From contig CAJYLO010000018.1 of the NCBI GenBank assembly GCA_913776245.1, forward strand, positions 1 to 64,000: 64,000 bases of DNA, in the 5' to 3' direction. A model generated the notes under the pieces. It saw nothing but the letters and a program-made list of their open reading frames with translations. It searched no databases and was not told the origin of the DNA. Position numbers and translations under genes: made by a program. The stretch is from an uncultured Chryseobacterium sp. (GTDB taxonomy: Bacteria; Bacteroidota; Bacteroidia; Flavobacteriales; Weeksellaceae). Shown here piece after piece: positions 3,705-22,116 of this stretch; the stretch's first letter is position 1, and each line of letters begins with the position of its first letter.

Positions 3705-3706
3705 TT

Positions 3707-5005: not shown

Positions 5006-5006
5006 T

Positions 5007-5357
5007 ATGAAAAATTATATACTTATCATATTAATATTAATTAATATTAATTGCCACAACGAAAAGAAAATAAATATGAAAATATTAAAAAATACTAAGG
5101 AATTTGTTGAATTGCAAGAGAAAGTAAAAGTTAAATTCACAGAAGCAGAGGCCAAATTTAATGATTATCATAGTAAAAAAGGATATAGTGAATTAAATAC
5201 TGTATTTTATTATTATAAAGATTATTATTATTATTTTGGTTACAAGACAGACCCCAATAATGACAAGCAAAATAGATCATTATTTTTTTATGAAGTAAAA
5301 ATAAATTCTAATACGGGAGAAATTGAAGCTATTGATGGACAAGCCAGTCCTCAATGA
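5007..5357 (+). CDS. Small lipoprotein, candidate immunity protein
   Basis: The start at 5007 (MKNYILIILILININC) gives a lipoprotein signal peptide ending in a lipobox cysteine at residue 16; an upstream ATG at 4989 would overlap the effector and spoil the signal. The mature 100-residue protein is charged and tyrosine-rich and not recognised. A lipoprotein one base after an effector stop is the usual layout for a periplasmic immunity protein, so it probably protects against the predicted papain-like toxin. The stop overlaps the ATG of the following VgrG fragment. Confidence 0.6.
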   Translation: MKNYILIILILININCHNEKKINMKILKNTKEFVELQEKVKVKFTEAEAKFNDYHSKKGYSELNTVFYYYKDYYYYFGYKTDPNNDKQNRSLFFYEVKINSNTGEIEAIDGQASPQ

Positions 5358-6364: not shown

Positions 6365-6374
6365 TAAAAATATT

Positions 6375-7535
6375 ATGTCAGAGAAATCAAAAAAAGCAAC
6401 AACATTATTTACAATAAAAAAAGCATCGGTAAATGGAAAAGAAAAAGAATTTACAGATAAAATCCTCAATAACGATATAGGGAAAGAATATATTATAATC
6501 ATTGCACCTCAAAATTACCAACACGGAGAGGGATGGTTTTCGGGAAAAGGAAAAGGAGCTGTAAAAGAAACTTGGAATTGGTTGAAAAATGATGCTGGCG
6601 TAAATGGCAAGTTTATGTTTGTACATCAAGGATTACGCAGGGTAAGATTAAACAAGGAGTTTGGCTTTAGTTGGACAATTTTAATGTACACTTCGGGTTA
6701 TACTGAGATGCAATTGTGCGAAACAAAAGAAGCTTTTAAAAATTTTGCTCCTAATTCTAATTTTGTAAGAATCAAAAACTACCAAGAAGCAATTAATTAT
6801 ATTAATACAAAAAGCATAAGTAAGACTATAGATGATAAAAAAGTACGAGAAAAAAATTCAGTTGAAAGAATATTTATTTATTGTCACGGATTTGTAGGTA
6901 AATTGGCAATGGGCTTAACTAATAGACATTCCGGAGATGAAGATTTAGATTGGGACGAAAAAGTGGTAGCAAAATTAAAGCAAAATGCTTTTTCTAAAAC
7001 AGCAAAAATCTATAGTTTTTCTTGTAAAACAGGATTAGGAAATCTTGAAATTGAAAAACACAATAATATCAATAAAAAAGTAGTAAATACTTCCGTAAGC
7101 ATTGGAGCATCACCTACTACTGGAATACCTTCCAGCAATGAAACTTATAAAACAGTAACATTACCATTGCTTGGAGAAAAAAGTTTGGCACAAAAATTTT
7201 CAAATATAACAGGTGCGATGACCTACGCTTATTGTTCAAGGTCAGAATATTCTGACACTTTAAATACAGCTGATGAATTAGATTTTATGGCATACTATGA
7301 AGCCGGTTCGGGCAAAAAACTTGATAGAAAAAATGATAGTTATAAATATTTATTAAAAAGGGAGAATAGAAAAAAAGAAGATATTAGAAGATTCGATGAA
7401 CTGCAAAAGATTCAAAACAAAAGATTTACGGTAGATAATGGCAAATTTGACCCGGAAGGGGCTCGCTATCCTGTAAGAGGTGGTGATACACCAGTTGGGG
7501 TTCCCAATGATATGAAAACATACAAAAAAAACTAA
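6375..7535 (+). CDS. T6SS effector, predicted caspase-like His/Cys protein
   Basis: This 386-residue protein follows the VgrG fragment by 10 bases. Two segments look catalytic: RIFIYCHGFVGKLAMGL (His171) and AKIYSFSCKTGLGN (Cys217), separated by a helix-rich stretch. A His-Gly after a hydrophobic strand, then a Cys after another strand, is the dyad layout of clan CD (caspase-like) peptidases, including DUF4347-type domains. No signal peptide or membrane segment is present. Toxin function is inferred from the VgrG fragment before it and the small membrane protein after it. The family assignment is by motif only. Confidence 0.55.
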   Translation: MSEKSKKATTLFTIKKASVNGKEKEFTDKILNNDIGKEYIIIIAPQNYQHGEGWFSGKGKGAVKETWNWLKNDAGVNGKFMFVHQGLRRVRLNKEFGFSWTILMYTSGYTEMQLCETKEAFKNFAPNSNFVRIKNYQEAINYINTKSISKTIDDKKVREKNSVERIFIYCHGFVGKLAMGLTNRHSGDEDLDWDEKVVAKLKQNAFSKTAKIYSFSCKTGLGNLEIEKHNNINKKVVNTSVSIGASPTTGIPSSNETYKTVTLPLLGEKSLAQKFSNITGAMTYAYCSRSEYSDTLNTADELDFMAYYEAGSGKKLDRKNDSYKYLLKRENRKKEDIRRFDELQKIQNKRFTVDNGKFDPEGARYPVRGGDTPVGVPNDMKTYKKN

Positions 7536-7536
7536 G

Positions 7537-8013
7537 ATGATAAAAAAGATTGTAGAAAAAAACCCATTGATATGGGCTTTAATAATGAGTATAGTTTCTT
7601 CTCTTATTTTATTTTTATGGGGAATATTCCAAATGTATAAAAGTAGTGAAATCAAGGAGTATTATGAAGACACCAAACCAATGCTCGATTTAATAAAAAT
7701 GATTTTCTATTTTGTCTTATTATATTTATTTTTCAATCTATTTACTTTTACAAAAAAAATAAAAGTGTTATATCGAATAATAAATGTCATTTTATTTTTT
7801 ATTGTACTTTTTGGCTCATATCTGATTTTTTCCGATAATATTGAATATTTGGCTAAGAAAATTCATTTTATTCCTGTAAAACAGTGGACGGAAAATGGAT
7901 ATGAACCACCAGAAGAAGAGTTATCTGATGTTTACTATTGGCTGATATTCATATGTTTATCATTCATAAATGTATTTTTCTTAAACCTGTTACCTAAAAA
8001 GAAGTTATTATGA
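7537..8013 (+). CDS. Four-helix membrane protein, candidate immunity protein
   Basis: The 158-residue product has four predicted membrane helices (about residues 10-32, 50-70, 78-99 and 132-152) and a short acidic loop (PPEEELSD) between the last two. No family was recognised. It starts one base after the caspase-like effector stop, and its own stop overlaps the next ATG by four bases (ATGA), so the set is translationally coupled. Inner-membrane immunity proteins of this kind are known for T6SS effectors, but the role here is inferred from context. Confidence 0.6.
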   Translation: MIKKIVEKNPLIWALIMSIVSSLILFLWGIFQMYKSSEIKEYYEDTKPMLDLIKMIFYFVLLYLFFNLFTFTKKIKVLYRIINVILFFIVLFGSYLIFSDNIEYLAKKIHFIPVKQWTENGYEPPEEELSDVYYWLIFICLSFINVFFLNLLPKKKLL

Positions 8014-8698
8014 AATACTTAATGAATACTTTCCGGGGGTATTATGATGTTACGGTTAAAATAACTGAAGATAGCTATCATTATATAGATGAAAATCGCC
8101 TTATCAATCCAAAACCAATGATTTTCGATTATAAAGAATTACAATGGTTAAAAGACAATCTGTATGATTTTGTTGTAAAAAGTTATCCTCAACTTTCAAA
8201 AGAAACATTGCAACAAATAAGAACAATTAATATTGAGGACTTAAATCAAGAACATATATTTTCACTGCCTATTCCCATACTTTTGACGAGGATATATATC
8301 TTCTAAAAATAAAGGATACCACAGGTCAAATCAACAATATTTATATGGTGAAATATCAAACGATGGAGGGAGTTTATAAAAATGATGAATTAATAAATCA
8401 CGAATTAGTAAAAAAAGTTCGTTTTGAAAACGAAGAATGGTACAGGAATTTTTTCAGCAATGATGAAGATTATAATAAAAATAAATATTCTGACATTACA
8501 ACGCAAGAGACTATGTACAAAATAATTAATAAGAGTAAATTCAGCACTTTAATAGAGGACGAAGAAAAGGAAGTTTACAAAACCTACGAAGGAAAAAATT
8601 ACACCTATGAAGAATGGAAAAACTTTGAAGATGAGCAATACAAAATCTATAAAGAGAAAAAAAATAAAAAAGGATTTTGGGATAACTTTTTCGGATAA
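8010..8698 (+). pseudogene. Frameshifted hypothetical gene (two frames joined)
   Basis: The first frame (8010-8306) encodes about 80 sensible residues and then a short unrelated tail. From about 8258 the reading continues without a stop in another frame (FTAYSHTFDEDIYLLKIKD...), joining the downstream frame that ends at 8698 in a lysine-rich tail (KKNKKGFWDNFFG). The pattern fits loss of one base near 8255-8270 in a gene of about 229 codons. It may be a real inactivation, a sequencing error, or phase variation. The product is soluble, of unknown family, and coupled to the membrane protein before it. Confidence 0.65.
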
Positions 8699-8710
8699 AT
8701 AAATAACACT

Positions 8711-9760
8711 ATGCCCCGACATATAACTGATACCACACAACTAAAGTGCGATAAAGGAACAGCAACTACACCTTTAGTAGTAACAAGTCAATCTTTTATG
8801 AAGATTGAAGGCAAGTTACAGGCAACGGAAGAAGACAAACAACCTAATGTAAATATTAAACCGTTTGGCGTATGTAGTATTACAAGAAGCTCTTGTTCAC
8901 CTGCTCCTATAAAATGGCAGGATACTTCTGTATTTGAGATTGATGGGAAAAAGGAACTTTTGGATAACTCCACTTGCCAATGTTCATTAGGAGGGAAAAT
9001 ATCTGTTATAAAATCTGCACAAAGTTTTGTAGAAGAGGGAGGAGCAACCATTTATGTAGAAGATGATGGTTTGGATGATAACTACACAGATAAAGTAGGT
9101 AATAATGAAAAAGATGAGCCAACAAACTCTTGGGTTATCAATTGGGTGCCTAATCAAAGAGGAAGTTTTGGAATATACAGATTAGCCAAATTCGACAACA
9201 CACAAAAAGGACTGAATCATTGGAACATATACGCTCATGGAATTATGGGTGGTGGTTTTCGAATAGAATATGGAAATGGTAATTTTATAGACATATATAG
9301 AGCACAACAAATCATATCTGCAATCAAAAAAATTAGTCAAACATTTGAGACTAAGTTAAATTCTCAAGAAGAAATTTCAATAAAATTTGTCGTTTGTAAC
9401 GAGCGTAGAAATTCTTCAGATGAGGGTTTGATTAAAACAATCAAAAAATTAACTCAGCTTCATTCAAATATAACAGCAGAAGTTTCATCAGGATTAGTTG
9501 TAGTTGAATATACTGATTCTTCAGCAGAACTAAAGGGAGTTTGGGATAAATTTGCAACTCCAGATACTGAAGGTAGAAAAGGTAGTTATGTAACTATCAA
9601 AAATGGAGAAATTGCAAGTACAGATCATTCTGTTGGACTAAAGCCAAGTACTCCAGAAGAAAGACAAAGTAATCAAGAATCTAAAGAACAGCAATATGAT
9701 AATCCTGACGATGATTATATTGATGTAAATAAAGAATGGAAAACAAAACCTAAATCTTGA
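8711..9760 (+). CDS. DUF4280 PAAR-like spike-tip protein with C-terminal His/Cys toxin domain
   Basis: The N-terminal 110 residues match the DUF4280 family: a cysteine-bearing start (TQLKCDKGTATTPL), then NIKPFGVC, TRSSCSPAPIKW and STCQCSLGGKISV. DUF4280 proteins are thought to act as PAAR-like tips on VgrG. The C-terminal domain (about 140-330) carries WNIYAHGIMGGGFRIEYG (His176) and IKFVVCNERRN (Cys229), again a strand-His-Gly then strand-Cys arrangement like caspase-fold enzymes, so this is probably a second clan-CD-like toxin. The protein would be a self-loading effector. The last 40 residues are hydrophilic and probably disordered. Confidence 0.75.
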   Translation: MPRHITDTTQLKCDKGTATTPLVVTSQSFMKIEGKLQATEEDKQPNVNIKPFGVCSITRSSCSPAPIKWQDTSVFEIDGKKELLDNSTCQCSLGGKISVIKSAQSFVEEGGATIYVEDDGLDDNYTDKVGNNEKDEPTNSWVINWVPNQRGSFGIYRLAKFDNTQKGLNHWNIYAHGIMGGGFRIEYGNGNFIDIYRAQQIISAIKKISQTFETKLNSQEEISIKFVVCNERRNSSDEGLIKTIKKLTQLHSNITAEVSSGLVVVEYTDSSAELKGVWDKFATPDTEGRKGSYVTIKNGEIASTDHSVGLKPSTPEERQSNQESKEQQYDNPDDDYIDVNKEWKTKPKS

Positions 9761-9764
9761 TATT

Positions 9765-10313
9765 ATGACGAAATACCTAGCCACAATTTCAATATTTTTC
9801 ATTTTGCATATTAATGGGCAAAAACTCGATTCTTTAGAAAGATATAACTATTATAAAAGCCAAGTTTATTTAGATTTAATCAATAAATTAGAATCTGGAT
9901 TAGGAAATTGTGATGATTACAATAAATATTCAAGAACAAAAAAAGATGTCAAAATCGTGCCTTTTACAAAAAAAATTGCTGAAAAATATAATTGTAAACA
10001 GGCTTATCAAGATTTATACACATTTTATTTTTTGTTAAATAAAAAACTATCTAATGAAAAAAATCTAAGTTGCGACACTTTGCTTTTAGAGAATTTGGAT
10101 AAAAGTAGTAGAAAATCTGCAATAAAAGCTCTTTTAAGAGCAGATATTGATAAATCTACAATTGCAACATATTACTATTTTGGTGTTTACGTGAAAAAAA
10201 ATCGTAAAAAAGCTATTGCTTTATATAGAAGTGATTATCAGTATGAAATTTCTGATAAGAAAATAATTGAAGAATTGGAAAGCAATAAAAACATGTTTGT
10301 TCCTTGTCAATAG
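9765..10313 (+). CDS. Secreted protein, candidate immunity protein
   Basis: The 182-residue product starts with a signal peptide (TKYLATISIFFILHINGQ) with probable cleavage after position 18. The mature part is helical and lysine/tyrosine-rich with four cysteines (in LGNCDD, KYNCKQ, LSCDT and VPCQ) and no recognised family. It begins 4 bases after the DUF4280-toxin stop, so it is the likely periplasmic immunity partner. Its helix pairs (AIKALLRADIDKS, KKAIALY) resemble Sel1/TPR-like helices, but not clearly enough to name. Confidence 0.55.
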   Translation: MTKYLATISIFFILHINGQKLDSLERYNYYKSQVYLDLINKLESGLGNCDDYNKYSRTKKDVKIVPFTKKIAEKYNCKQAYQDLYTFYFLLNKKLSNEKNLSCDTLLLENLDKSSRKSAIKALLRADIDKSTIATYYYFGVYVKKNRKKAIALYRSDYQYEISDKKIIEELESNKNMFVPCQ

Positions 10314-10407
10314 ATAATTCATTCAGCATAGGAAAAACTCATGGAAAAGGAGAAGGCAAGAAAACCGTAAATATAGGATTGAAGTGTTTAAATTTAAGAG
10401 TTGGAAG

Positions 10408-10863
10408 ATGAGAAAAATTCTTTTATTAATATTTTTATCCTTTGTTGTTTCCTGTACTTTACAAAAAGATATCGAATACCATTTTACAAAAGGTAACGCA
10501 CAAAGTAAATTAATCGAGGATATTAAAAACTATGAAAATTCAGGATATAATGTGTTCCTCATTTTTGGAAAAGAAGAAGGGTATAATATTATTGATATTG
10601 TGCCAGATATAAATAAAAATGAGAAAGTACAGGGTCTAAAATTATCTGAAACGAATAGAAAACTCATGTTAAATGGTAAATATTATTATGTTTTTTTTGA
10701 CTTTGATAATGAATAAGCAGCAACTGTAAAAGAAGAAATAGAAGATGGAGAAAAAGTCCAAATAGTAAAAAAAAGCGTTCCCATATATGATCACGCAACT
10801 ACTCTAGATTTCGACAAAAATTGGAGTTTTATTAAAAAAAGTAGCTTAATAAATTTCAAATAA
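10408..10863 (+). pseudogene. Lipoprotein gene with a premature in-frame stop
   Basis: From the ATG at 10408 the frame encodes a lipoprotein signal (MRKILLLIFLSFVVSC) and about 85 further residues to a TAA at 10714-10716. After that TAA the same frame stays open for 48 coding-like codons (AATVKEEIEDGEKVQIVK ... SSLINFK) to a second TAA at 10861. The simplest reading is a nonsense mutation in a gene of about 150 codons. The upstream GTG at 10384 is a less likely start. Context suggests another immunity-type lipoprotein. Whether the short form still works is unknown. Confidence 0.65.
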
Positions 10864-10890
10864 TCAACATAAAACTTTGTAGAAGAATAG

Positions 10891-11760
10891 ACAAAAGCCG
10901 ATAAAACTTACCGCATCATTGACATCAAACATATCCACGACCCGGGCGAATATTACAACGAGTTTACCGCTATCCCGGATTTGTTCAATGCCGCGCCCTA
11001 TATTGACACTGAAGATTTACCAATCGGTGAAGAGCAACCTGCGAGAGTGATGGATAACAATGACCCAATGGGAATGGGAAGAATCCGGGTACAGTTTCCG
11101 TGGCAGGAGGACAAAAACCAGATGACGCCGTGGATACGGTTGATACAGCCCCACTCCGGAGCAGGTAAAGGCTTTCATTTTATTCCTGAGATTGGCGAGG
11201 AAGTATTGGTTGGCTTTGAAGGCGGAAATGCTGAGAAGCCTTTTGTGATGGGGACGCATTATAATGGTAGTGAAACAAGCGGATATGCTACTTCCGACAA
11301 CAGTATAAAAGCAATCCACACAAGAAGCGGACATATTGTAAAGTTTACAGAAGATGAAAGTATTATCATCACCGATAAATCTGGAAATATTATAGAATTC
11401 GATACAGTGGGAAGTAATATTACTGTAACTGCTCCTGAAACAATGACATTTAATTGTAAGAATATGAACATTAGTGTTTCTGAAAATATGAATACTTCTG
11501 TAGGAATGAATAAGATTAATTCTGTGGGTATGAATATAACCGAGATAGCAGGGATGAACATTTTTCAGAATGCAACACAGGATTATTCTTTAAATGCAAC
11601 TAATATTACCAAAATTGCAAGTGAAACCTACTCCTATGATGCCAACGATATTCATAAAAATGCTACAGAAGGTATAGAAGTGGCAGCAGCGAAAGATTAT
11701 ATACAGAATAGTGAAAAAACGATACATAATTTATCAGGAGAGAAAGGATATAACGCATAA
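10891..11760 (+). pseudogene. 5'-truncated VgrG, second copy
   Basis: The open frame enters vgrG homology at about 10900 (KTYRIIDIKH.. then FTAIPDLFNA), equivalent to residue 360 of the full VgrG, and runs through the complete OB-fold and needle to 11760. There is no ATG; only a TTG at 10981 could start it. The stretch through EEQPARVMDNNDPMGMGR is almost identical to the full vgrG, so this is a recent duplicate suited to homologous recombination. The needle end differs (MTFNCKNMNISVSENMN...), implying a spike tip matched to the effector just downstream. Confidence 0.8.
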
Positions 11761-11770
11761 AACTCTAATT

Positions 11771-13582
11771 ATGGGAGATCAGGAGAAAAAAGGACAAATA
11801 CAGATCTTTGCTAAGAATATAAGAGGAAAAGCAAATGGACAAATACAGGAAGATAGCAAGATAACAAGAAATACCGTATATGGTAGACATATTCAAAATG
11901 GCGGAAATGGAGTGAATAATGATGTAAATACGTAAAGAAAGCCGTTAAAAATAGGTCATTATTTTGAAAGCGCTGTTTGGACAAATCACAAAGATGAACC
12001 TATAAAAAGAGCCATTTATGGACAAAGCGTAAGACTTCATATAACAATGAATAAAGAATATGTAAAAGTGGGAGAAGAAGTTCAGTTTAGGCTTTACACA
12101 GTTGATAAAATCACCAAAAAAGAAACTCATATAGGTTTAGTAGAGACAAGAGACAATAAAATTACTTATGACAAAGTAAAAATCGAAAATATAAAAGGAG
12201 AATATCAAGCTGTAATAAAATTTACTCTTACTCCGGATATTTTGGATAAGGGACTACCTCCTTATATGAAAAACCATTTGGAATGGTTGTATTGCGGATG
12301 CAGTTACCAATCTGAACATAAAGATTGGGAGCATAAACAGATACCTAAGAAACAGGCAGATTATCTGGAAATGGGAGTCTTGATCATAGATCGTTATAAA
12401 ATGCCCGGATTAAAACCTAATGGATCTGATATTGCTGATGATATGACCTATGGAACGGGGCAACCTCATAGAGACAGAATATACTCCGAAGAAAGAATGG
12501 CAAAATATAAAGAAGAATATAAAACCTTTGGTTTCGATTTTTCTAAGCACACCCTTTTTGCAGATGCAGAAGATGACCTGCTGATGGAACCCTATGAAAT
12601 AGAAGAAGAAGTAGTAATAACCAACAAAAAACAAGAAGAATACAAAGTACCAATAGATAATACCGCTGTTTACAAACCAAAGTTTCCGACCCTAACAGAA
12701 GAACAAAATGCGTTGATAAAGGTAAGAAACAAGAATGTAAAAGCGATTTATACTAAAGAGAAATGCTCTAGCACAAAATATGGTATTATTTCTACCGGGT
12801 TAGATGTCAGAATTTTTGATAATCTTTCTGATGAACAGCTGTTTTGGGATTTTGAAAATACTGCGGAACTCTATTTTGCGAGAGGAGAATTGCAAGAAAA
12901 CTTAGAAAGGATGATTGCTAAATTTAAGAGAAATAAAGGGGGAATATACGAAGATGAAGTCCTTACAAGAAATATAAAGGAGCATCCTGAAACTCTTGCA
13001 TATTGTCAAAAAGTGGAAGACTATATTGCAGAGCAACTAAAAAACAATTTTAGTAAATTAGAAGAAGTGGAAGATAAAGATCCTTATTTTGAAAAGAAAG
13101 AAGGAAAAGATAGTTTTTTTTCTAATTCGCAAGGAAAAAGAAGTGAAAAAAGAAAAAAATTTAGTAAACCAATGTATTCTTATGGAAATCCAGTAGAAGC
13201 GACAAAAGGACTTACGATAGCAACCAACGATATTTGGTCGGCAGAAGTTCTTTTGAAAGAAGTAAAATTTAGCGGAGATAATTATACTGGAAAATATGAG
13301 GTAACACTTTGGGATCATTTTGGATTAGATTTACCCGATATGGAGAAAATATTTAACATTATTCCAAGTGTAGGAGAAGTGTTTGTGTGTTGGTTTATTC
13401 TGCAACATTTACGAGGATACAAACCCTTTTTAACCAAAATAAATTTTACCAAAGAGTTTACGGGTAATCTACAAAAAGGAATGTTTGAGATAGAAACAGA
13501 GCGTGAAAAACAGAGAGAGGAAGATGCAAGAGAGTTAAACGAAAAAATACAAACAGATATTCGGACAAGCCCCAAACTTTAG
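11771..13582 (+). pseudogene. DUF3289-type T6SS effector interrupted by an in-frame stop
   Basis: From the ATG at 11771 the frame encodes 54 residues of adaptor (MGDQEKKGQIQIFAKN...), meets a TAA at 11933-11935, and then continues in the same frame as KPLKIGHYFESAVWTNHKDEP, which matches the delivery domain of the first effector (GHYFVRGWWTDENDKP). An ATG at 12047 could start a 511-residue downstream product lacking the adaptor. The C-terminal 120 residues (LLKEVKFSGDNYTGKYEVTL, WDHFGLDLPD, WFILQHLRGYKPFLT) match the DUF3289 family. The toxin domain is intact, but delivery of the shortened product is doubtful. The stop may be a recent nonsense mutation or a sequence error. Confidence 0.75.
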
Positions 13583-13585
13583 AAT

Positions 13586-14005
13586 ATGAAAAAAATATTT
13601 TTTTTAGCCATAATGTGTCTTTTATTAATTTCTTGTAAAGAAAAAAAAATAAAGGTAATACATTCAAAAGTTAGATCTAATCTGTTTTTAATTAAGTTTT
13701 CTTCTCAAAAAGATTCTTTATTAAAATCCGAAATTAAAAATTTCTTATTAAAAAATTTTAAAGACGTCAATCAGAATGATTATGATATATATATTTATAA
13801 ATACACAACCAACACAAAATATTTTATAGATAATAAAGAAGATCCAGGAGGTTTTAGTAGTGAAGAAATTTCGATGTATGAAGATGATTATATAGCAGGG
13901 TTTTATACATCAAAATGTAAAAGAGATTCTACAAAAAAAGTGGGTGTTTTTAGCTTTTATAAGACATATTCAAAACCAGATACAATTATAAATAGATGTC
14001 AGTGA
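13586..14005 (+). CDS. Lipoprotein, candidate immunity to the DUF3289 toxin
   Basis: The 139-residue product has a clear lipoprotein signal (MKKIFFLAIMCLLLISC, lipobox LISC). The mature domain contains NTKYFIDNKEDPGGFSSEE and ends with a cysteine (INRCQ). It begins 3 bases after the toxin stop. Two paralogues follow at 14215 and 14941, each behind a leftover toxin 3' end, which strongly supports an immunity role. The protein should sit on the periplasmic face, implying a toxin that acts in the periplasm or membrane. The family is not otherwise recognised. Confidence 0.7.
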   Translation: MKKIFFLAIMCLLLISCKEKKIKVIHSKVRSNLFLIKFSSQKDSLLKSEIKNFLLKNFKDVNQNDYDIYIYKYTTNTKYFIDNKEDPGGFSSEEISMYEDDYIAGFYTSKCKRDSTKKVGVFSFYKTYSKPDTIINRCQ

Positions 14006-14013
14006 GCAAAACT

Positions 14014-14211
14014 TATGTAATGGTTTATTCTGCAGCATTTGATAAGGTATAAACTGGTTTTAACTAAAATTACTTTTACAAAGAATTTTCAGAAAATCTT
14101 CAAAAAGGGAAATCTGAATTAAATGAAGAATGTGAAAAACAAAGAGAAGGAGATGCAAGAGAGCTAAACGAAAAGATACAAACAGATATTTGGACTAGCC
14201 CTAAATTTTAA
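14014..14211 (+). pseudogene. Orphan DUF3289 toxin 3' end, copy a
   Basis: These bases match the last 200 of the intact toxin gene: the section for WFILQHL..Y, an NFTKEF-like stretch with a frameshift, then a readable tail (ELNEKIQTDIWTSPKF) before the stop at 14209. No start codon or delivery domain remains. It lies directly in front of a second immunity-type lipoprotein gene, as expected for a displaced toxin-immunity cassette. Confidence 0.75.
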
Positions 14212-14214
14212 TTG

Positions 14215-14576
14215 ATGAAAAATATAATAATATTGATTTTACAAATTATTTCGTGTGCAAACAAGCCTGAGATTATAGAATCTAAAACAAATAGAGGGTT
14301 ATTTTTATTAAAGAATCCTAAATTTCCAAAGGATTCTAGCTTTTTGTTTTATCAATATACAAGAAACACTAAATATTTTATAAATAATAACGAAGACCCA
14401 AGCGGATTTTCTAGTGAAGAATTAATTAATTATCCCGAAGATGAAATTTCTGACTTTTTTATTTTAAAATGTAAAAGTGATTCAACAAAATTAGTAGGCG
14501 ATTTCATTTTTATGGACTGAAAGGTTCACGTAATGAAAAAGATGAAGTAGATACCCTCATTTATAAGTGCAAATAG
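14215..14576 (+). pseudogene. Second immunity-type lipoprotein, frameshifted near its end
   Basis: The start at 14215 gives a lipoprotein signal (MKNIIILILQIISC). The body parallels the first paralogue: RNTKYFINNNEDPSGFSSEE matches NTKYFIDNKEDPGGFSSEE. In the annotated frame it ends at 14520, but a neighbouring frame continues from about 14503 as FYGLKGSRNEKDEVDTLIYK to a TAG at 14574, which matches the C-terminal layout of copy 1 (FYKTYSKPDTIINRC). A one-base change near 14500 best explains this. The truncated 101-residue form may still fold. Confidence 0.65.
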
Positions 14577-14937
14577 TAGGTCGGCAGAAGTTATTCTAAA
14601 AGAAGTTAAATATACTGGTGATGATTAAACCGGAAAATATGAGGTAAAACTTTGGGATTATTTCGGATTGGATTTACCAGATGCGGAAATAATACTAAGT
14701 GAAGGTAAAATATATGCAATTTTAGCTGGCTTTCGTGCTTGGTTTTTATTGCAGCATTTATGGGGTTATAAACCATTACTAACTAAAATGAATTTTACTA
14801 AGGAGTTTTCTGGAAACCTCGCCAAAGGAATGAGTGAGCTAAAAGCTGAAAGAAAAGCAGAGGAACAAAGAAGAAAGGAAGATATGAAAAGAATTAAAGA
14901 AGAGATAAAGCTAAGAAACCCTACAATAAATTGGTAA
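14577..14937 (+). pseudogene. Orphan DUF3289 toxin 3' end, copy b, with internal stop
   Basis: The frame reads SRSAEVILKEVKYTGDD, a TAA at 14626-14628 where the intact gene has a tyrosine codon, then TGKYEVKLWDYFGLDLPDAE and FRAWFLLQHLWGYKPLLTKM to a stop at 14935. It is the most complete leftover DUF3289 domain but has no delivery module and no ATG; a TTG at 14668 could start the last 89 codons. Its charged C-terminal tail (KAERKAEEQRRKEDMKR) differs from the intact copy, so it came from another allele. Confidence 0.75.
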
Positions 14938-14940
14938 TGT

Positions 14941-15201
14941 ATGAAAAAAATATTTCCAATAATTCTCATTATACTATTTTTTTCTTTACAAGAAAAAAAT
15001 ATTGAGTTTATAAAATCAGAACCTTCAGACAATTTAATTTTATTAAAGAATCTTCCAAAAGAAGATTCTTTAATAAAAAATCAGATATCTGATTTTTTAA
15101 ATTTGAATTATGACAAATATGATAAATCTATTACAACTTTTGGCTTTTATAGATATAACACAGTTACAAAGTATTTTTTAAAAATAGAGGGATTAACATG
15201 A
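14941..15201 (+). pseudogene. Third immunity-type lipoprotein, truncated and without lipobox
   Basis: The 86-residue frame starts 3 bases after toxin remnant b. It aligns with the other two paralogues (signal-like MKKIFPIILIILFFS, then FIKSEPSDNLILLKN and NTVTKYFLK). The lipobox cysteine is lost: SLQEK stands where copy 1 has SCKEK. The protein breaks off right after KYF, where the others continue with EDPGGFSSEE. The following bases switch to toxin 3' sequence, so the gene was cut by recombination. It is unlikely to be functional. Confidence 0.65.
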
Positions 15202-15204
15202 AAA

Positions 15205-15276
15205 TAGAGAAAGGAAGATCCAAGGGAATTAAATGAAAAGACTCAGCGAGATATTTTGACAAGTCCTAAATTTTAA
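15205..15276 (+). pseudogene. Orphan DUF3289 toxin 3' end, copy c
   Basis: Only about 20 codons of the toxin tail survive (EDPRELNEKTQRDILTSPKF, stop at 15274-15276), matching the ends of the intact toxin and copy a. It is fused directly to the broken third immunity gene and precedes a fourth, unrelated lipoprotein gene. This conserved tail repeats four times across the array and may be the shared sequence at which the cassettes recombine. Confidence 0.65.
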
Positions 15277-15279
15277 GTC

Positions 15280-15770
15280 ATGAAAATGAAAACTAAAATA
15301 TTTTTCATTTTTTTCATCTGTTTACTATTGGTCAACTGTAAACATACAAAACCTTATAAACCTGAGTTTACTTATGTTTCTAAAGTTAGTGGAAAAAAGC
15401 CATATTATTATGAACCAAACATGGGAGATGTTTATATATAATGATGAATATTTTATCGAAACATCTCAAGATTATCAAAGTAAAAGTGTTCAAAAGATAG
15501 TAGATTCTTTTTTAAGAGAGAATTGTAAAATTTGTACAATATATACTACAGTAAATTACTATTCCTTTTGGATTATAGAAAAAAACAAAGTGTACCGAAA
15601 AATATTTAACAACAGGAATTAAAGATGGGTGTTGGGAAAATGATGATAAAGAAACAGGTGTTCGGGATTATTACACCATTTTGCACCGCAGTTATAAAAG
15701 ATCGGATAAAGATAAATCCATTTGGGTATCGAATCTGTCAGAAAAAAAATTAGGGAAAAACTTTATATGA
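15280..15770 (+). pseudogene. Fourth lipoprotein gene, broken by two frameshifts
   Basis: The start at 15280 encodes a lipoprotein signal (MKMKTKIFFIFFICLLLVNC) and about 33 more residues before a stop at 15439. Coding-like sequence then continues in a second frame (MFIYNDEYFIETSQDYQSK to about 15590) and in a third (TEKYLTTGIKDGCWENDD ... LSEKKLGKNFI, stop at 15768). The three pieces join into one protein of roughly 160 residues with a C-terminal YYTILHRSYKR segment. It does not resemble the three preceding paralogues and may belong to a lost effector. No single intact product is possible. Confidence 0.7.
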
Positions 15771-15995
15771 TACAATTTATTGCAGTCATAATAAGATCTG
15801 TTGAAGCTACACCAATATATATAATGCTATTAATTTTTAATACTCACTGATGGGAATATTCTTGGAGTTAATATAAGATGTGTTGTTATCTACCTTATTT
15901 CAATCATAGATGTACATAATCATAAAAATAGGTAGTATTATCATATTTTATTTCTATACACACAAAGTATTTTTTTTAGTAGAAAAGAAAAAAAA

Positions 15996-17066
15996 ATGAA
16001 CATAAGCATATCTACATATCAGGTAAAAAGAGGAGATACTTTGGAGTCCGTTGCAGGGCAATTGGGAATTTCGGCAGAGGCATTGAAACGTTATCACAAT
16101 ACTTATTGCGATTTGAAGAATCTTATAGGAAGTGATTTTAGAGGGGTTCAAGAAATTATGATTCCTTCATCCGAAAAAATTGCAGAACTAAAAGAAAGTC
16201 AAAAGCAAATATCTTTAATCAATAGTCTTCCTTCTTTCCATTTGAATAAGGATTTTTATGCATTAAACTATGAAGTAACAGAAAGGTTTGAACAACTGGA
16301 TAAAGAAGATTTAATAGTTGATTATTTGGTTTCCGTAAAGCTCAATGAAACGGAGGGTAAGGGATTTATTACCGAAGTAAGAACTTCAGACATTAAAAAA
16401 TACGGAATATCTCCCGATGAAAAGATGGCGATGATCTCACTTGCCTGCATGGAAAGTATTTCTCCAATTGCTTTTAGTATTCCGGCTCAAGGGAAAATAA
16501 AAAGTCTATACGACCATAAAGCTCTCGTTAAAAAACTTGAAAGCAAAAGACCGGATCTAGAAGACTTTTTTATTGGGGAAGTGAATAAAACCTATCTGGA
16601 TAAGTTTCATTCAAGTGTTAAGAATGAAAATTATTTGTTAAAACAATTTCAATCCGCATTGTTGTATCAAATTTTATTTCCCGAAATGGATTGCTTTCGT
16701 AGAAAAAATGAGTGGAAAGAAAGTTTTTACGTTATTCAAAATTCATTTCCGGTACAATGCCTGTTTCATACTAAATATAATTTTGAAAATCCATATGATG
16801 TAGAAATTATTATTAAAGGTAAAATAGAAGAAAGTTGCAGTTTACAGGAATTATTGAGACGAATGAAATTTGAAGAACTTCGTGAAGATAAAGTAACAGG
16901 TGAAATAGAATTACGTTATACTACCTCCAAAGAGACCAGGAAATTAAAGAACATAGAGGCAAGCATTATACTTTTGCATCAAGAAGAATTGTATCGGAAG
17001 CAGAGTCTATTGCTTAGGGCAAAAGAAGAGAATCCGGCAAGAAAATTCAGCACATTATTAGATTAA
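15996..17066 (+). CDS. LysM-domain protein of the T6SS cargo cluster
   Basis: The 356-residue protein opens with a LysM fold (about residues 7-58: YQVKRGDTLESVAGQLGIS, then LKRYHNTYC and VQEIMIPS). The rest is a soluble mixed helix/strand domain (about 85-350) with no family recognised. It has no signal peptide, so the LysM does not mark an exported cell-wall protein. In phage tails and T6SS-like machines, cytoplasmic LysM proteins join hub and spike parts, so an adaptor or assembly role is reasonable. The next gene starts with a similar LysM motif 8 bases on, suggesting one operon. Confidence 0.7.
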   Translation: MNISISTYQVKRGDTLESVAGQLGISAEALKRYHNTYCDLKNLIGSDFRGVQEIMIPSSEKIAELKESQKQISLINSLPSFHLNKDFYALNYEVTERFEQLDKEDLIVDYLVSVKLNETEGKGFITEVRTSDIKKYGISPDEKMAMISLACMESISPIAFSIPAQGKIKSLYDHKALVKKLESKRPDLEDFFIGEVNKTYLDKFHSSVKNENYLLKQFQSALLYQILFPEMDCFRRKNEWKESFYVIQNSFPVQCLFHTKYNFENPYDVEIIIKGKIEESCSLQELLRRMKFEELREDKVTGEIELRYTTSKETRKLKNIEASIILLHQEELYRKQSLLLRAKEENPARKFSTLLD

Positions 17067-17073
17067 AAAACCG

Positions 17074-17898
17074 ATGAAAAAATACATTGTACACAAAGGA
17101 GATACTTTGGACTCCATTGCAGAGCAATTTGGAGTACAAGACGGACAGACTCTCCGTTCCTATCATAATATCTATTGTCCTCTTGAAGATTTGCTGGGAC
17201 ATGATGTTGTTCCTGGAAAAGAACTTTTCGTTCTTGAAGATTCTCAATATCTGAAAGATGATGATGAAGTAAAAGATTCCATTAACGGTTATGACGATGA
17301 AGCTGAAGCTGAAGAAACTGTGGAAGTTTCAGAAGAACAGCAGGAAGAATCTAAAGAATAAAAAAAAGAAGATCAGAAAAAAGAACAGCAAGCCGAAAGC
17401 GATTCCAGTGAACATGACGGTAAATATTTTGTTGTACAAAAAGGAATGTGTCAATGCAACCAAGGCTTTAAGTTTCCAAAATTTAAAGTAACCAGCCATC
17501 AGAAACATTACTGGAATGATTCTGATGGGCAGGCAGATTATCTTGCTGTTACAGAAGATGATTTAACATTAGATCCTCCTGCAATGCCATTCGGTAATTG
17601 TAAGCTAAAACCTTCTTCGGGAGGATACTTGCCTTGTGCTTTTGCACCGGCAGGAAAATGGACAAAAACCTATGACAAAGTAAAAGTAATGGGCAAAAGC
17701 TGTCTAACAGAGCTTTCCGAATTGATTTGTGCAACCGGAGGAAAGATAACAATTTTCAAGCATGGTCAGCAAAGCGAAGCAGGAAAAAGCAATGTAAAGA
17801 AAGCAGATGCAAGAGAACAGCAAATCTATAATCCTGTAATGAATTTTGAGGAGTTTCAGGAAGAAATAAATGGAGAGGATTCATTTGAGGTTGAATAA
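17074..17898 (+). pseudogene. LysM-DUF4280 spike-tip protein interrupted by an in-frame stop
   Basis: The frame from 17074 encodes a LysM domain (YIVHKGDTLDSIAEQFGV), an acidic linker, and a TAA at 17359-17361. It continues in the same frame through a lysine/glutamine-rich linker to an ATG at 17446 (CQCNQGFKFPKFKVTS) and a complete DUF4280 domain (MPFGNCKLKPS, CAFAPAGKW, GKSCLTELSELIC, GGKITIF). The whole is best read as one 275-codon LysM-linker-PAAR-like gene with a nonsense codon in the linker. Because the linker is tolerant, both halves might be made separately: a 95-residue LysM protein and a 150-residue DUF4280 protein. It lies 14 bases before the cell-wall effector it would help load. 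Confidence 0.75.
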
Positions 17899-17912
17899 AA
17901 ACACAAAGAATT

Positions 17913-20015
17913 ATGAAAATCATCAAAGGAAATACAAGTCCAAAGGCTGAAGAAAAAACATTTTATGAACTATCCATTTTGGTTCCTGATTTCAGCAACC
18001 CTATTTTCAACAATAAGCCGAAAGAAAAATATATCTGCACATTGTTCAAAAAAGATAAAGCAACCGGTTGGAAACAAGTTTCAAAAAATATTAAATATGG
18101 TAAAAAAGTACCTTATACTTTCGGAGAGAAAGTGGTAGGGATTCCTTATAGAATAGAAGTCCACACAGAAACTAAAAATCTTCTGAATGTAACGGAAAAA
18201 AAATTTGTGGCTAACTTGATTGTAACCCCAAGAACAGCAAAAGAATCTGTTATCGGAAGGGTTATATTACTGAACAGAGGAAATATAGATGTCAATAAAG
18301 CAAAATTTAGTGAATCATTATCAGCAGAAGCAAGAACCTCCAATTTGTTTGCGAAAGAAATTACATTTTATCTTTGGGAGGAAGGAGTTTCAGAAGCTGA
18401 CAAATACAAAAAACCTAAAAAAGCTTTTGTTGATAAAAACGGAATAGCCAAAGTAACATTTAGTTTGTCTGAATATGCTACGCCGAAAACCCTTATGAGT
18501 TTTTTTACCGGAGATGAAAATACAACGAAGAAATTTTTTGTATCAGCTGTTTATGAGAATAAAAAAGTAACAAATAAAACACCTGTAGTAGCAAGTGACG
18601 GAACAACACAACCTGCAAGTACTTCTGCAAGTAATAGTAATAATAGGGGTTCTGGTATAATAAGTAGATTAACTGAAATAGTTGCTGAAGGAATGGAAAG
18701 TATTACAAGCAACAATCAAGAAAACACGAGAAGTGCAACGAGTGTAGAGCAAATACAACCTGCAAAATCTAATACTGAAAATAAATGTCCTAATTGCAGC
18801 AAAGATATCACAGTTGAAGAACTTAAAAAAATATTTTCAGATGCAAGTGATACAACTTTAAAAGAAGCAGCAACGGCTTATAATAAGTATATGAAAAATT
18901 TGAATATGAACACTTGTTGGAATAAAGCACATTTTTTTGCGCAAGCATCTATAGAAGTAGGATCTTCTTTTACTTTAAAACAAGGAGAAAGTTTAAATTA
19001 TTCAGCCAGAAGACTTAAGGATGGAGACTATGTAAGCGGTTCAGGATGGATAAAAGATTTAAAAAATGGTGGACACTATACTTCCGGAAAATGGAAAACA
19101 GGGCCTTTTTCGTACTTTAAAAGTCATCAAGATGATGCTGATAAATATGGTAGAAAAGACTTAAATAAATATGGTGATGGGGGTATTCAAAAGGCCAATT
19201 ATGAAATGATTGCAAGTTTAGTTTATGATGATGAAAATAGATCATCTAAAGAAAAATTAGGAAATACTCAGGCAGGAGATGGGTGGAAGTTCAGAGGAAG
19301 AGGTTTGGTTCAATTAACAGGGAGATCCAATTATAATGCTGTTAATAAATATACCTTAAAAGAGGAAAACATAGATATTTTATTAAATCCAGATAAGGTT
19401 AATGAAGTTAAAATTGCAGTTTTGACATCAATGGGATATTGGAAAAATCACGGAGGAGACACAAAATCTAATGGACAAAAAGACGAAGATATCCTTTCTC
19501 GGCTCGTAGGAAGTGATGTAGATTATGCAGGTAAAAAAAGAAACTTTGATAATATAACCTCAAAAGTTTTTAAGATTAATGAATGTAAACTTACAAAAAC
19601 ACAAAAAGCAGAGAGTAGATCTGAAAAAAAAGGCAAGTATGATATAGAAAAAGCAGTTGCTCATCTTGATAGCAATGCATTACCAAAATCTAAAGGAAAA
19701 TGTGCTTTATATGTAAGGCAGGCTATAAATGCTGGAGGAATATATCATTTATCTGGCCACGCAACAGAATACTATGATACTGATAAATTATCAAAATATG
19801 GTTTTACTAAAATAGGAAGTGATTTAGATTTAAATTCTGTTTCATTAAAAAAGGGAGACATAGCAACATTTAGTTCTGTAAAAGGGCATCCATATGGGCA
19901 TATAGCAATGTGGAATGGTAAACAATGGGTTTCAGATTTTAAACAAAAATCTTTTTGGGTGGCTACTCAATATTCGATAGATAAAAAATATGCCATATAT
20001 AGATGGGTAGAATAA
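17913..20015 (+). CDS. T6SS cell-wall effector with GH19 and CHAP-like amidase domains
   Basis: This 700-residue effector has three parts. Residues 1-220 are a beta-rich delivery region, followed by a serine/asparagine linker. Residues 295-540 are a GH19-type lysozyme/chitinase domain: ACWNKAHFF-like helix with HFFAQASIEVG (likely catalytic Glu348) and the hallmark GDGWKFRGRGLVQLTGRSNY. Residues 575-700 are a CHAP/NlpC-like amidase domain with GKCALYVRQAINAGG (Cys597) and HPYGHIAMWNGKQWVSDF (His663). It would cut both the glycan and the peptide parts of peptidoglycan in target cells. The CPNCSKD motif (Cys292/295) before the GH19 domain may bind a metal. The DUF4280 protein before it is the likely tip, and the lipoprotein after it the likely immunity protein. 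Confidence 0.85.
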   Translation: MKIIKGNTSPKAEEKTFYELSILVPDFSNPIFNNKPKEKYICTLFKKDKATGWKQVSKNIKYGKKVPYTFGEKVVGIPYRIEVHTETKNLLNVTEKKFVANLIVTPRTAKESVIGRVILLNRGNIDVNKAKFSESLSAEARTSNLFAKEITFYLWEEGVSEADKYKKPKKAFVDKNGIAKVTFSLSEYATPKTLMSFFTGDENTTKKFFVSAVYENKKVTNKTPVVASDGTTQPASTSASNSNNRGSGIISRLTEIVAEGMESITSNNQENTRSATSVEQIQPAKSNTENKCPNCSKDITVEELKKIFSDASDTTLKEAATAYNKYMKNLNMNTCWNKAHFFAQASIEVGSSFTLKQGESLNYSARRLKDGDYVSGSGWIKDLKNGGHYTSGKWKTGPFSYFKSHQDDADKYGRKDLNKYGDGGIQKANYEMIASLVYDDENRSSKEKLGNTQAGDGWKFRGRGLVQLTGRSNYNAVNKYTLKEENIDILLNPDKVNEVKIAVLTSMGYWKNHGGDTKSNGQKDEDILSRLVGSDVDYAGKKRNFDNITSKVFKINECKLTKTQKAESRSEKKGKYDIEKAVAHLDSNALPKSKGKCALYVRQAINAGGIYHLSGHATEYYDTDKLSKYGFTKIGSDLDLNSVSLKKGDIATFSSVKGHPYGHIAMWNGKQWVSDFKQKSFWVATQYSIDKKYAIYRWVE

Positions 20016-20054
20016 AAACTTACTTTACAATAAATAATGCTTAACTTATATTTT

Positions 20055-21089
20055 ATGAGAACTATAATATTTTTATTCCTATTTGTATCAATAACCATAA
20101 GCTGTAAACAAGAACCTGAGTCAGTTAAAAGTAATACAATAGATACTCTAAAAATCAATAACTCTGAAAAAGCTATTCAAGCCTTAACAGAATTTTATGT
20201 ATTGTTCTATGGTAGTGATAAACCTTTGAATGATAAAAATAAGATGAAAAATTATGTTTCAGAACGTATTTTAAAAAAGATAGATAGTCTTACTTCAAAT
20301 GAAAAAAATTTAATTTTAGATTATGATCCTTTTATTAAAGGGCAAGATTATGATGGTGATGTAATCAAAAAAACACTAAAAATTGAACCTTTAAAAAATG
20401 AAAACGAATATAGAATAAGCTTTTTATTATTTGATGATAAAAATGAAAAAAGAACATATGTAGATGTTTTGTTGAAAAAAGATAAAAACAAAAATTTCTT
20501 GATTTACAGTATTCTAAATGATGAATATTTGAATTTTAAAAAGGATAATTCACCTATATCTACAAATTTGGTAGCAAATGAAAATGAAATCATCAATTCT
20601 TTGAAGTTTGATAACTATCATATTTTAAAAAATGAAAAATGTGATTTGAATGAAGATGGGCTAAATGATATTATATTAATATTTAGTATATCAAAAGAGT
20701 TTAACCAACAGGATGAAACAACTTTAGACTCGCCCGTTTATATTTTAATAAATACAGGAGAAAATAATTTTGAAGTGTATAAAAATAAACATATTATTTA
20801 TACGTTTATGCCTAATACGCCAGCAGAAGGATTTAGAAATTTGGCAATCAAAAATAATTTTTTCACTATTGAGCAACAAGAAGGTGGTGGCAAATTCTTT
20901 ATTGATACCTACACCACTTTTAAATATGATAAACAGAATAAAACAATTATCCTCAGTAAATACGGTAAATCATATACAGATAGAAATGACCCGGATAAAT
21001 TGATTCCAGACAAAATATATACTTCCAAAAATTTTAAAATTATAACATTTGAAGAATTTAATGCGCAAACCATAGAGAAAAAATTTTAG
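20055..21089 (+). CDS. Lipoprotein, candidate immunity to the cell-wall effector
   Basis: The ATG at 20055 gives a lipoprotein signal (MRTIIFLFLFVSITISC); the ATG six codons upstream (20037) would add residues before it. The 344-residue protein has an N-terminal helical part and a C-terminal beta-rich part with an EF-hand-like loop (NEDGLNDIILIF) typical of FG-GAP/VCBS-like lipoproteins. It is the only gene after the GH19/amidase effector, so it probably guards against one or both activities in the periplasm. After the TAG at 21087 the same frame continues into an SH3-like remnant. Confidence 0.65.
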   Translation: MRTIIFLFLFVSITISCKQEPESVKSNTIDTLKINNSEKAIQALTEFYVLFYGSDKPLNDKNKMKNYVSERILKKIDSLTSNEKNLILDYDPFIKGQDYDGDVIKKTLKIEPLKNENEYRISFLLFDDKNEKRTYVDVLLKKDKNKNFLIYSILNDEYLNFKKDNSPISTNLVANENEIINSLKFDNYHILKNEKCDLNEDGLNDIILIFSISKEFNQQDETTLDSPVYILINTGENNFEVYKNKHIIYTFMPNTPAEGFRNLAIKNNFFTIEQQEGGGKFFIDTYTTFKYDKQNKTIILSKYGKSYTDRNDPDKLIPDKIYTSKNFKIITFEEFNAQTIEKKF

Positions 21090-21314
21090 GGTGATGATAA
21101 TTTAGATGATAAAAAATATCTAGTCCAAGATCCCGACGGTTATACCAACCTCCGCAAAGAAAAAAACACACAATCAGAAATATTACAGAAAGTAAAATCT
21201 GGAGAAAATATTGAAGTTTTAAATAATACAGGAGTTTGGTATTTGGTAAAAACCAAAGAAGGTAAAACATGATATGTACATAAGAGTAGAATTAAAAATT
21301 GTAATTTTGGCTAA
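21090..21314 (+). pseudogene. SH3b-domain remnant in frame after the lipoprotein stop
   Basis: Directly after the TAG at 21087-21089 the same frame encodes a bacterial SH3 domain (DPDGYTNLRKEKN, IEVLNNTGVWYLVKTKEG), then a TGA at 21270-21272 inside the expected GYVHKSRI motif, then YVHKSRIKN and a final TAA at 21312. Either the lipoprotein once had a C-terminal SH3b domain that two nonsense mutations removed, or this is the tail of another lipoprotein joined here. SH3b tails bind peptidoglycan, which fits an immunity protein against a cell-wall enzyme. Confidence 0.6.
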
Positions 21315-21615
21315 GGAAAAATATAGGCAACGCTTTTTGATACTGCTATTTTCAAGCTCAATTTCTAAATTCCTCTAGACGAATTCTCAAATTCCTCAAG
21401 ACGAATTTCCAAACTCCTCAAGACGAATTACAAATTTCCTCAAGACGAATTCTTAAACTCCTCAAGACTGATGATTAAAATGCGAAGCCAAACAAAGATT
21501 TTGCTCCAATAAAGAATTTATAAAAGCAAGGTGAACATCGCTCATACGCAAATGAAAGCAAGAAGTTACCTAACGTATCGGGGATATAGGCGGGCAGAGT
21601 AGTATCGATCAATGA
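21315..21615. other. Gene-free stretch at the island edge
   Basis: No supported gene lies between the SH3 remnant and the first minus-strand gene. It holds the 22-bp tandem repeat listed separately (21360-21469). The base composition changes near here from the AT-rich cargo island to the more balanced sequence that follows. Confidence 0.6.
21360..21469. repeat. Five tandem copies of a degenerate 22-bp repeat
   Basis: Five units abut without spacers at 21360, 21382, 21404, 21426 and 21448; the consensus is AATTCTCAAATTCCTCAAGA followed by CG. The CCTCAAGACGAATT core is nearly invariant (the first copy has CTCTAGACG), while bases 4-10 vary. The period of 22 is not a multiple of three, so it is not coding, and it equals about two helical turns, which would place protein contacts on one face of the DNA. 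Confidence 0.9.
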
Positions 21616-21966
21616 TTACAGCTCGTATTGGCCTATCATCCTGCTGAGAATAAAGTTGACGTATTCATCATCCACCATTTTGGTGTCCATCAGTTTGTTG
21701 CGGTATTCGTAGGAAGCCAGGATTTTGGCCAGCCTGAGATACTGCGGATGGTAGGCCTCCTGCACTTTAATCCTGCTGTTGCCATTCACAGTGTTGATGA
21801 TGGTATCGTCTACAGTCCTGAGCTTGATGATGAGGTGGTGAAGATTTTGAAATCCGGCTCCTGAATACCTCTCAATAATATTAACTTTAAAACTCTTGAA
21901 GTAAATGGTTTTAAATTGAAGTTTTGATTTTCGGTCAACATGTTGAATTTCGAGTCGGAATTCCAT
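21616..21966 (-). CDS. Conserved-looking hypothetical protein
   Basis: The 116-residue minus-strand frame has balanced composition and a coherent strand-then-helix pattern: a basic N-terminal beta region (MEFRLEIQHVDRKSKLQFK), a middle segment IIKLRTVDDTIINTVNGNSRIKV, and a helical C-terminal half with EAYHPQYLRLAKILASYEYR. No family is recognised and there is no signal peptide. A plus-strand frame over the same bases (21628-21864) looks like a shadow. It is the first gene outside the T6SS island, and its divergent orientation supports a boundary here. Confidence 0.6.
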   Translation of the reverse strand: MEFRLEIQHVDRKSKLQFKTIYFKSFKVNIIERYSGAGFQNLHHLIIKLRTVDDTIINTVNGNSRIKVQEAYHPQYLRLAKILASYEYRNKLMDTKMVDDEYVNFILSRMIGQYEL

Positions 21967-22116
21967 TCGTGTCTGATTTGTTAGGGAATAATATGATAGG
22001 ACAAAAATAAAAACTATTATGAACTATCCCTTATGATCGGCTCATTTATTTTATAAAATTTAGTTTTTTATAACCGGATACATTGATTTGAGTACGTCAA
22101 GTGTCAAATCATTGTG

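Follow-up and report, generated by a model that had tools for sequence, protein, structure and literature searches.

A decayed immunity array behind a DUF3289 effector gene in a Bacteroidota type VI secretion region points to sequential effector displacement

Arrays of immunity genes lined up behind a single effector gene of the type VI secretion system (T6SS) have been described in Vibrio cholerae, where sequential effector displacement was proposed to combine an upstream homologous anchor with a downstream illegitimate join (Kirchberger et al. 2017, PMC5361080). Related layouts are known from Rhs C-terminal displacement in Snodgrassella alvi (Steele et al. 2017, PMC5727410) and from the acquired interbacterial defence (AID) and recombinase-associated AID (rAID) arrays of Bacteroidales (PMC12247911). 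Here, we analysed a 64,000-nucleotide (nt) stretch of DNA (the window), which is the start of contig C18, from contig base 1, in the 3.13-Mb draft genome of an uncultured Chryseobacterium sp. It holds an array in which 3′ ends of effector genes alternate with lipoprotein-type immunity genes, behind a DUF3289 effector gene whose product has a profile match to solved BtpeA, of the BtpeA–BtpiA effector–immunity pair of Bacteroides fragilis (PDB 9jdi, 9jg8, 9jg9). Our preferred explanation, to which we assign a probability of about 75%, is that the locus is a decayed immunity array arising from sequential displacement at a T6SS effector gene of the BtpeA type (DUF3289, colicin-M-like). The array is a Bacteroidota counterpart of the V. 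cholerae and Rhs sequential-displacement arrays, known in kind and new in bacterial group, and it is distinguished by a single toxin family throughout, by joins at stop codons, and by a spacing of 3–5 nt from tail stop to ATG, with outliers elsewhere. In the literature searched, from which subscription papers were absent, we found no paper linking DUF3289 or BtpeA with such arrays.

All features of the array lie on the plus strand. The effector frame (11771–13582) carries PF11692 at amino acids (aa) 301–504 of 547 (E 1.6e-15; 57.8 bits, cut-off 25), and a profile built from 14 rows matched the structures 9jg8_B (E 1.1e-98) and 9jdi_A (E 5.6e-94), as well as 9jg9. T6SS-dependent secretion and periplasmic toxicity have been reported for other DUF3289 members (PMC11148199, PMC12135965). 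The present effector was probably a weapon for attacking the cell walls of rival bacteria. In the window, the frame beginning at ATG 11771, the start of the relative's gene, meets an in-frame TAA at 11933–11935, and the longest ATG-initiated open reading frame (ORF) past this stop spans 12047–13582 (511 aa). When the tip of this effector (aa 433–547 of the 547-aa frame) was used as a tblastn query, it was found to recur three times behind the effector, each copy preceding a lipoprotein-type gene. Tail 2 (14013–14211), which is frameshifted and ends ...ELNEKIQTDIWTSPKF, was matched in two frames at 14021–14110 (E 1e-7) and 14074–14208 (E 1.5e-15), and shares 78.5% DNA identity with the local effector over 191 nt. 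Tail 3 (14573–14937), matched at 14581–14910 with 59% identity (E 2e-39), has one internal stop and yielded the second PF11692 match of the locus (14587–14808; 27.2 bits, cut-off 25), while tail 4 (15201–15277), of about 25 codons and ending ...RELNEKTQRDILTSPKF, was matched at 15208–15270 with 76% identity (E 2e-6). With E values down to 2e-39, chance repeats were set aside as an explanation. At the DNA level, the array contains a 105-nt and a 111-nt repeat family, each in three copies, and a 122-nt pair at 82%. All tips belong to one DUF3289 family, and the remnants start at varied points inside the toxin domain.

Immunity gene 1 (13586–14005), which starts 3 nt past the effector stop, encodes a whole lipoprotein of 139 aa, and relatives of this protein were detected by tblastn at 14251–14511 and 14983–15183, which makes three of the four lipoprotein-type genes homologous. 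The family carries a lipobox-like ..LLISC whose cysteine is invariant in 16 aligned rows, which on the basis of the alignment is a predicted lipoprotein signal. Only the first gene is whole. Immunity gene 2 (14215–14576) is broken, with an open frame at 14215–14520 and homology that continues in another frame, its product lacking an internal stretch and running out of frame before the end; its nearest relative is immunity 1 of genome G245, with 54% aa identity. Immunity gene 3 (14941–15201) is truncated to 86 aa without the lipobox cysteine. The fourth lipoprotein-type gene (15280 to approximately 15760), likewise broken, is unrelated to immunities 1–3 except for a signal-peptide-like start: its match to the immunity profile is confined to 20 such residues (E 0.02), and one 70-aa piece of it returned just weak matches (24–38% identity) outside the window's species among 316 family genomes. 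The initial annotation of this DNA had described four lipoprotein-type genes, three of them homologous, interleaved with three effector 3′ ends in a Bacteroidota T6SS cargo region and on a DUF3289 domain; tblastn and the DNA repeats agree on the layout, and the domain and the setting (described below) are both borne out. It had also given all the tails a common ELNEK..TSPK end. Tails 2 and 4 indeed have this end in common with the effector; the divergent C-terminus of tail 3 is instead KEEIKLRNPTINW (..KLRNPTINW).

The array resembles those of V. cholerae in that one effector is followed by several immunity genes, with old immunities kept and pushed downstream; the V. cholerae report likewise gives an example of an old effector 3′ end shifted back and argues against duplication from the immunity phylogeny (PMC5361080). 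Indeed, several immunities behind an effector, non-clustering alleles and displaced 3′ ends are all found in the window. However, the V. cholerae modules are of different types, whereas here the tails and immunities 1–3 represent one toxin/immunity family, and in the present array, which comes from another phylum and T6SS type, tails stand between nearly all immunities and the joins lie at the immunity stop. In the Rhs loci, too, a complete toxin comes first, followed by orphan ends, each with an immunity gene, and the orphans decay (PMC5727410). There, however, the entire toxin domain persists in the orphans, following a core/tip boundary motif, and the orphans can be toxic, whereas our remnants start within the domain. 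The likeness to Rhs and contact-dependent inhibition loci drawn in the initial annotation thus extends to the displacement of 3′ ends and the retention of immunities, but the swapped piece is not a whole toxin tip of another kind, and no Rhs or CdiA domain appeared among the Pfam matches of 20 scanned proteins (18 of them from the window).

The colicin-M-like DUF3289 effectors of Proteobacteria have the toxin domain family in common with ours, whereas their immunity is provided by DUF943 or a 95-aa three-helix membrane protein (PMC11148199, PMC12135965) and the present immunity proteins are predicted to be periplasm-facing lipoproteins. Pfam at E 0.1 assigned no DUF943 domain to them. A pairing of effector and immunity is tentatively suggested by the effector profile matches to 9jdi and 9jg8 and by the comparison of an immunity model with 9jdi_C of the BtpeA–BtpiA complex; a sequence profile from BtpiA does not detect the present immunity family, and nothing on an array in B. 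fragilis was seen. The AID/rAID arrays are similar in being orphan T6SS immunity arrays, and G245 carries such units in a genome in which neither TssC nor TssD was detected; rAID, however, combines a tyrosine recombinase with intergenic motifs and numerous unrelated immunity genes (PMC12247911), whereas the spacers of the present array are toxin tails. None of these rAID features was noticed among the ORFs of the locus, although no search aimed at recombinases was made. On our reading, the model of effector displacement, so far built on Vibrio and Rhs loci, would also apply to the Bacteroidota T6SS and to one solved family, BtpeA–BtpiA. Moreover, because every unit is homologous, cross-protection among immunity and effector alleles, including that of an orphan immunity against the old toxin, becomes directly askable.

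In the mechanism that we favour, a module made up of a homologous effector and its immunity gene, which we infer to be foreign and horizontally acquired, would recombine into the locus. A homologous crossover upstream would replace the resident effector, and a short illegitimate join downstream, right behind the incoming immunity stop and inside the old effector, would leave the old effector 3′ end and its immunity gene shifted one place downstream. Repetition would produce the order effector, immunity 1, tail, immunity 2, tail, immunity 3, tail, immunity 4, and the older units would then decay, this sequence of events being our reconstruction. The positions of the junctions are consistent with such a process: tail homology starts within 12 nt either side of the preceding immunity stop in all nine joins tested, at varied effector positions, with one value at the search edge and with pairs picked because a tail follows (the join of immunity 3 and tail 4 in the window and three short F. 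hibernum spacers fall outside this test). The join of immunity 2 and tail 3 in the window and that of immunity 1 and tail 2 in G245 lie at effector positions 13230 and 13226 (window numbering); since the two nearly coincide and the immunities are sisters, joins can be passed down or transferred as whole units.

The immunity genes are of mixed ancestry. In the immunity tree, window immunity 1 groups with G067 (support 100/99), immunity 2 with G245 (83/77) and immunity 3 with immunity 3 of F. hibernum (93/80), the latter falling inside a Flavobacterium-genus clade (97/87, 95/89, 96/89) that includes the position-1 immunities, directly behind complete effectors, of G819 and F. hibernum. A single clade of window immunities 1–3 was rejected by the approximately unbiased (AU) test (p 2.8e-4; 1.4e-5 on a smaller set). 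In line with this, the effectors of the window and of G185 are 71–89% identical in 150-nt bins over 11504–13603, and from 13604, at the immunity gene, identity is 63–66%, while the array flanks stand at 78% and 79% DNA identity; the effectors and flanks are orthologous, and the first immunity is not. The tails themselves carry a further signal. Ratios of nonsynonymous to synonymous divergence (dN/dS) for whole tails against the local effector were 0.18 for window tail 2 (44 codons), 0.13 for window tail 3 (100 codons) and 0.12 for G185 tail 2 (93 codons), and when an orphan branch neutral from birth was simulated beside an effector evolving at 0.1 (1000 runs per comparison), no more than 1 run in 1000 attained the observed ratio for 10 of the 11 tail comparisons. 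The tail differences are mostly synonymous, and therefore most of the tail divergence arose within functioning effectors, before a late separation. Such synonymous-biased divergence, read as a sign of late cut-off, provides an easy test by which displacement at other loci can be dated and proven.

These results also bear on tandem duplication in place, in which an effector 3′ end would have been copied, together with its immunity gene, within one genome, the copies later diverging and decaying. That all units are homologous and share one orientation is what copying would produce, and the G185 effector tip is 96% identical to the first orphan tip over 282 nt; beside these tips, however, G185 immunities 1 and 2 share only 47% protein and 62% DNA identity. 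For the window, the rejected immunity clade disfavours duplication, as do tail ratios typical of working genes that lie at or beyond the neutral-orphan limit in nearly all comparisons, and we consider this origin quite improbable. Several observations nevertheless weigh against displacement. A donor strain carrying the identical module did not turn up, and old duplications, if followed by differential loss, could give a mixed immunity tree as well. A single immunity clade was not rejected for G185 (p 0.069), F. hibernum (p 0.055), G245 (p 0.145) or G819 (p 0.444), so that duplication is compatible with these four tests, and the 66/68 nt identity of two F. hibernum tail spacers resembles duplication or conversion there. 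The tail tree is poorly resolved, the tails being too short: a clade of the window effector and tail 3 was not rejected (p 0.315), and the grouping of tail 3 with the complete G064 effector (78/94) is not decisive. Among the simulated comparisons, the 3′ part of G067 tail 2 (5 differences) was unremarkable (271 of 1000 runs); moreover, overlapping ancestry makes the comparisons non-independent, the restriction of some of them to alignable blocks lowers the nonsynonymous proportion (pN), and a simple mutation model was used. On balance, displacement by foreign modules fits better than local duplication.

Alternatively, the tails might have been kept by selection for some use, for instance in translating the next immunity gene, or been overwritten by the effector through gene conversion. 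The immunity ATG indeed follows the tail stop by 3–5 nt in all 17 listed units (3 nt in 14, 4 nt in two and 5 nt in one), even where just a few tail codons are left, and in G185 the orphan tip ORF (6097–6384) overlaps the end of immunity 1 (6106). Beyond the listed units, the distance is 4 nt in G841, 6 nt in G731 and G776 and 43 nt in Taibaiella, with an overlap in G028, and the 6- and 43-nt cases mean that the spacing is no universal rule. Considering also that frameshifts or upstream stops interrupt the window tails and that the C-terminus of tail 3 differs, we regard this explanation as very improbable. A related idea, which seems to us unlikely, is that the tails serve as recombination handles, through which homologous recombination adds, swaps or deletes immunities behind one effector in an integrase-free cassette array, the constant layout of stop, 3–5 nt and ATG also coupling translation. 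It would fit the disparity between tips and immunities in G185, the nine stop-codon joins, the breakpoint common to the window and G245, and the near-identical F. hibernum spacers. A different matter is whether the module is simply dead, reduced in this genome to a pseudogene graveyard that offers no protection at all, which we entertain tentatively as a possibility short of an even chance. The VgrG remnant upstream, the effector stop and the broken immunities 2–4, all the same in two assemblies, point that way; immunity 1, however, is whole and strongly constrained relative to its orthologue in G067 (81% identical, dN/dS 0.10), where the effector is broken too, although part of this constraint may predate the breaks. 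In any case, such a state bears on present use rather than origin and is compatible with sequential displacement.

With its effector and older immunities broken, this genome retains only immunity 1 as a gene that could still work, and the array looks largely like a ruin here, while its counterparts in G185 and G819 look alive. The lipoproteins would be expected to neutralise the effector in the periplasm, and the initial annotation had envisaged a stockpile of them against sister strains; because immunities 2–4 are broken, the sequence does not bear out protection by four genes. The same layout occurs in G185, G067, G245, F. hibernum, G028 and G819.

Searches placed these arrays within a broader distribution. 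Among 320 genomes of the window's family, query P0001 had relatives in 53 and immunity 1 in 29, whereas in F. hibernum's genus, the immunity profile matched 23 of 299 genomes, many of the matches being weak; in an order-wide search, a piece of tail 3 was found in 15 of 395 genomes, 14 of them in the window's family. A scan for tips and immunities covered 40 distinct loci (31 after dropping 3 duplicates, plus 9), of which 7 hold an array or an orphan tip, namely those of the window and the six genomes named above. Displaced effector 3′ ends are also present in G185, G067, G245, F. hibernum and G819. The window effector is neither whole nor beside a complete VgrG, whereas G185 (Chryseobacterium) and G819 (F. 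hibernum's genus) have both a complete VgrG and an unbroken effector; in G067, the effector is frameshifted and immunity 1 whole. Whole orphan immunities comprise immunity 2 of G185, immunity 2 of G819, and immunities 3 and 4 of F. hibernum, in which two seemingly intergenic spacers (the 66/68-nt pair) proved to be remnants of tails, about 20 codons long. In all 13 loci of a second effector type (452 to 480 aa where measured), a single tip and a single immunity lie within about 1.5 kb, with a gap of 41–53 nt in the six loci measured.

In G245, two alternating tips and immunities lie close to a contig end, beside a response-regulator-like gene, and TssC and TssD both went undetected in this 99%-complete genome; the presence of an array where no T6SS marker was detected suggests that units can travel as defence alone. 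Within the same locus (L050, 347–2846, minus strand), a metalloprotease-like end (Reprolysin_4, E 1e-4), perhaps displaced from a different toxin, is fused to the second immunity, and another lipoprotein comes next. Phage and plasmid carriers were set aside: a 65-aa tip piece searched against IMG/VR gave 32 pattern matches, none of them confirmed, and the effector query matched 7 of 72,556 plasmid records, all from Gammaproteobacteria, below 60% identity and over at most 40% of the query. Elsewhere, an orphan immunity relative lies between transglycosylase-like and VgrG-like genes in L088 (G117; about 5073–5594, reverse strand), a genome without a listed effector match. Longer immunity relatives of 208–228 aa occur in L092 (G054; 5898–6524), L091 (G096) and L093 (G095; 6415–7101); they have a membrane-helix-like N-terminus and no lipobox, and no DUF3289 effector is nearby in the stretch read.

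As for the setting, the window opens with three TssD/Hcp genes (226–1698), followed by a complete VgrG gene (1755–3704) carrying both PF04717 and PF05954 in Pfam. TssC was not found in the window's own draft, whose contig C18 starts at base 1, and in the near-identical assembly G017 (CAJYWD010000023.1) it lies just beyond the stretch corresponding to the window start; these TssD/Hcp genes and the complete VgrG, together with the nearby G017 TssC, place the array in a T6SS cargo region. Over 3141–22641, G017 and the window differ at three bases only (9626, 15851 and 19513), with no difference over 10894–15770, so the array, including its stops, is identical in both assemblies. Directly upstream of the effector, a vgrG 3′ remnant on the plus strand (10894–11760) corresponds by tblastn to residues 339–626 of the complete G185 VgrG; it starts mid-gene at about 10894, having lost the first ~338 residues, the N-terminal hub part, and retains PF04717 without PF05954. 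A second headless VgrG 3′ remnant lies within 5354–6364 (about 5390–6022), beginning about 33 nt past the stop of the gene at 4989–5357. Both remnants stand behind other modules, and displacement seems to act at the vgrG level too, as the same event one level up.

The conserved right flank of the array is a LysM-domain gene on the plus strand (15996–17066), with 79% DNA identity to G185. Near the complete VgrG gene, a second effector-like gene (3707–5005) has an N-terminus that is 33% identical to that of the DUF3289 effector over aa 3–144, which on sequence grounds would give the two a common delivery domain and different toxin ends. A small lipoprotein-like gene at 10384–10861 has an in-frame stop at 10714–10716, its frame continuing to about 10859. 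Further cargo is encoded at 8711–9760, 17446–17898, 17913–20015 and 20037–21089, comprising a pair of DUF4280 (PAAR-like) genes together with a weak GH19-like effector followed by a DUF3828 gene.

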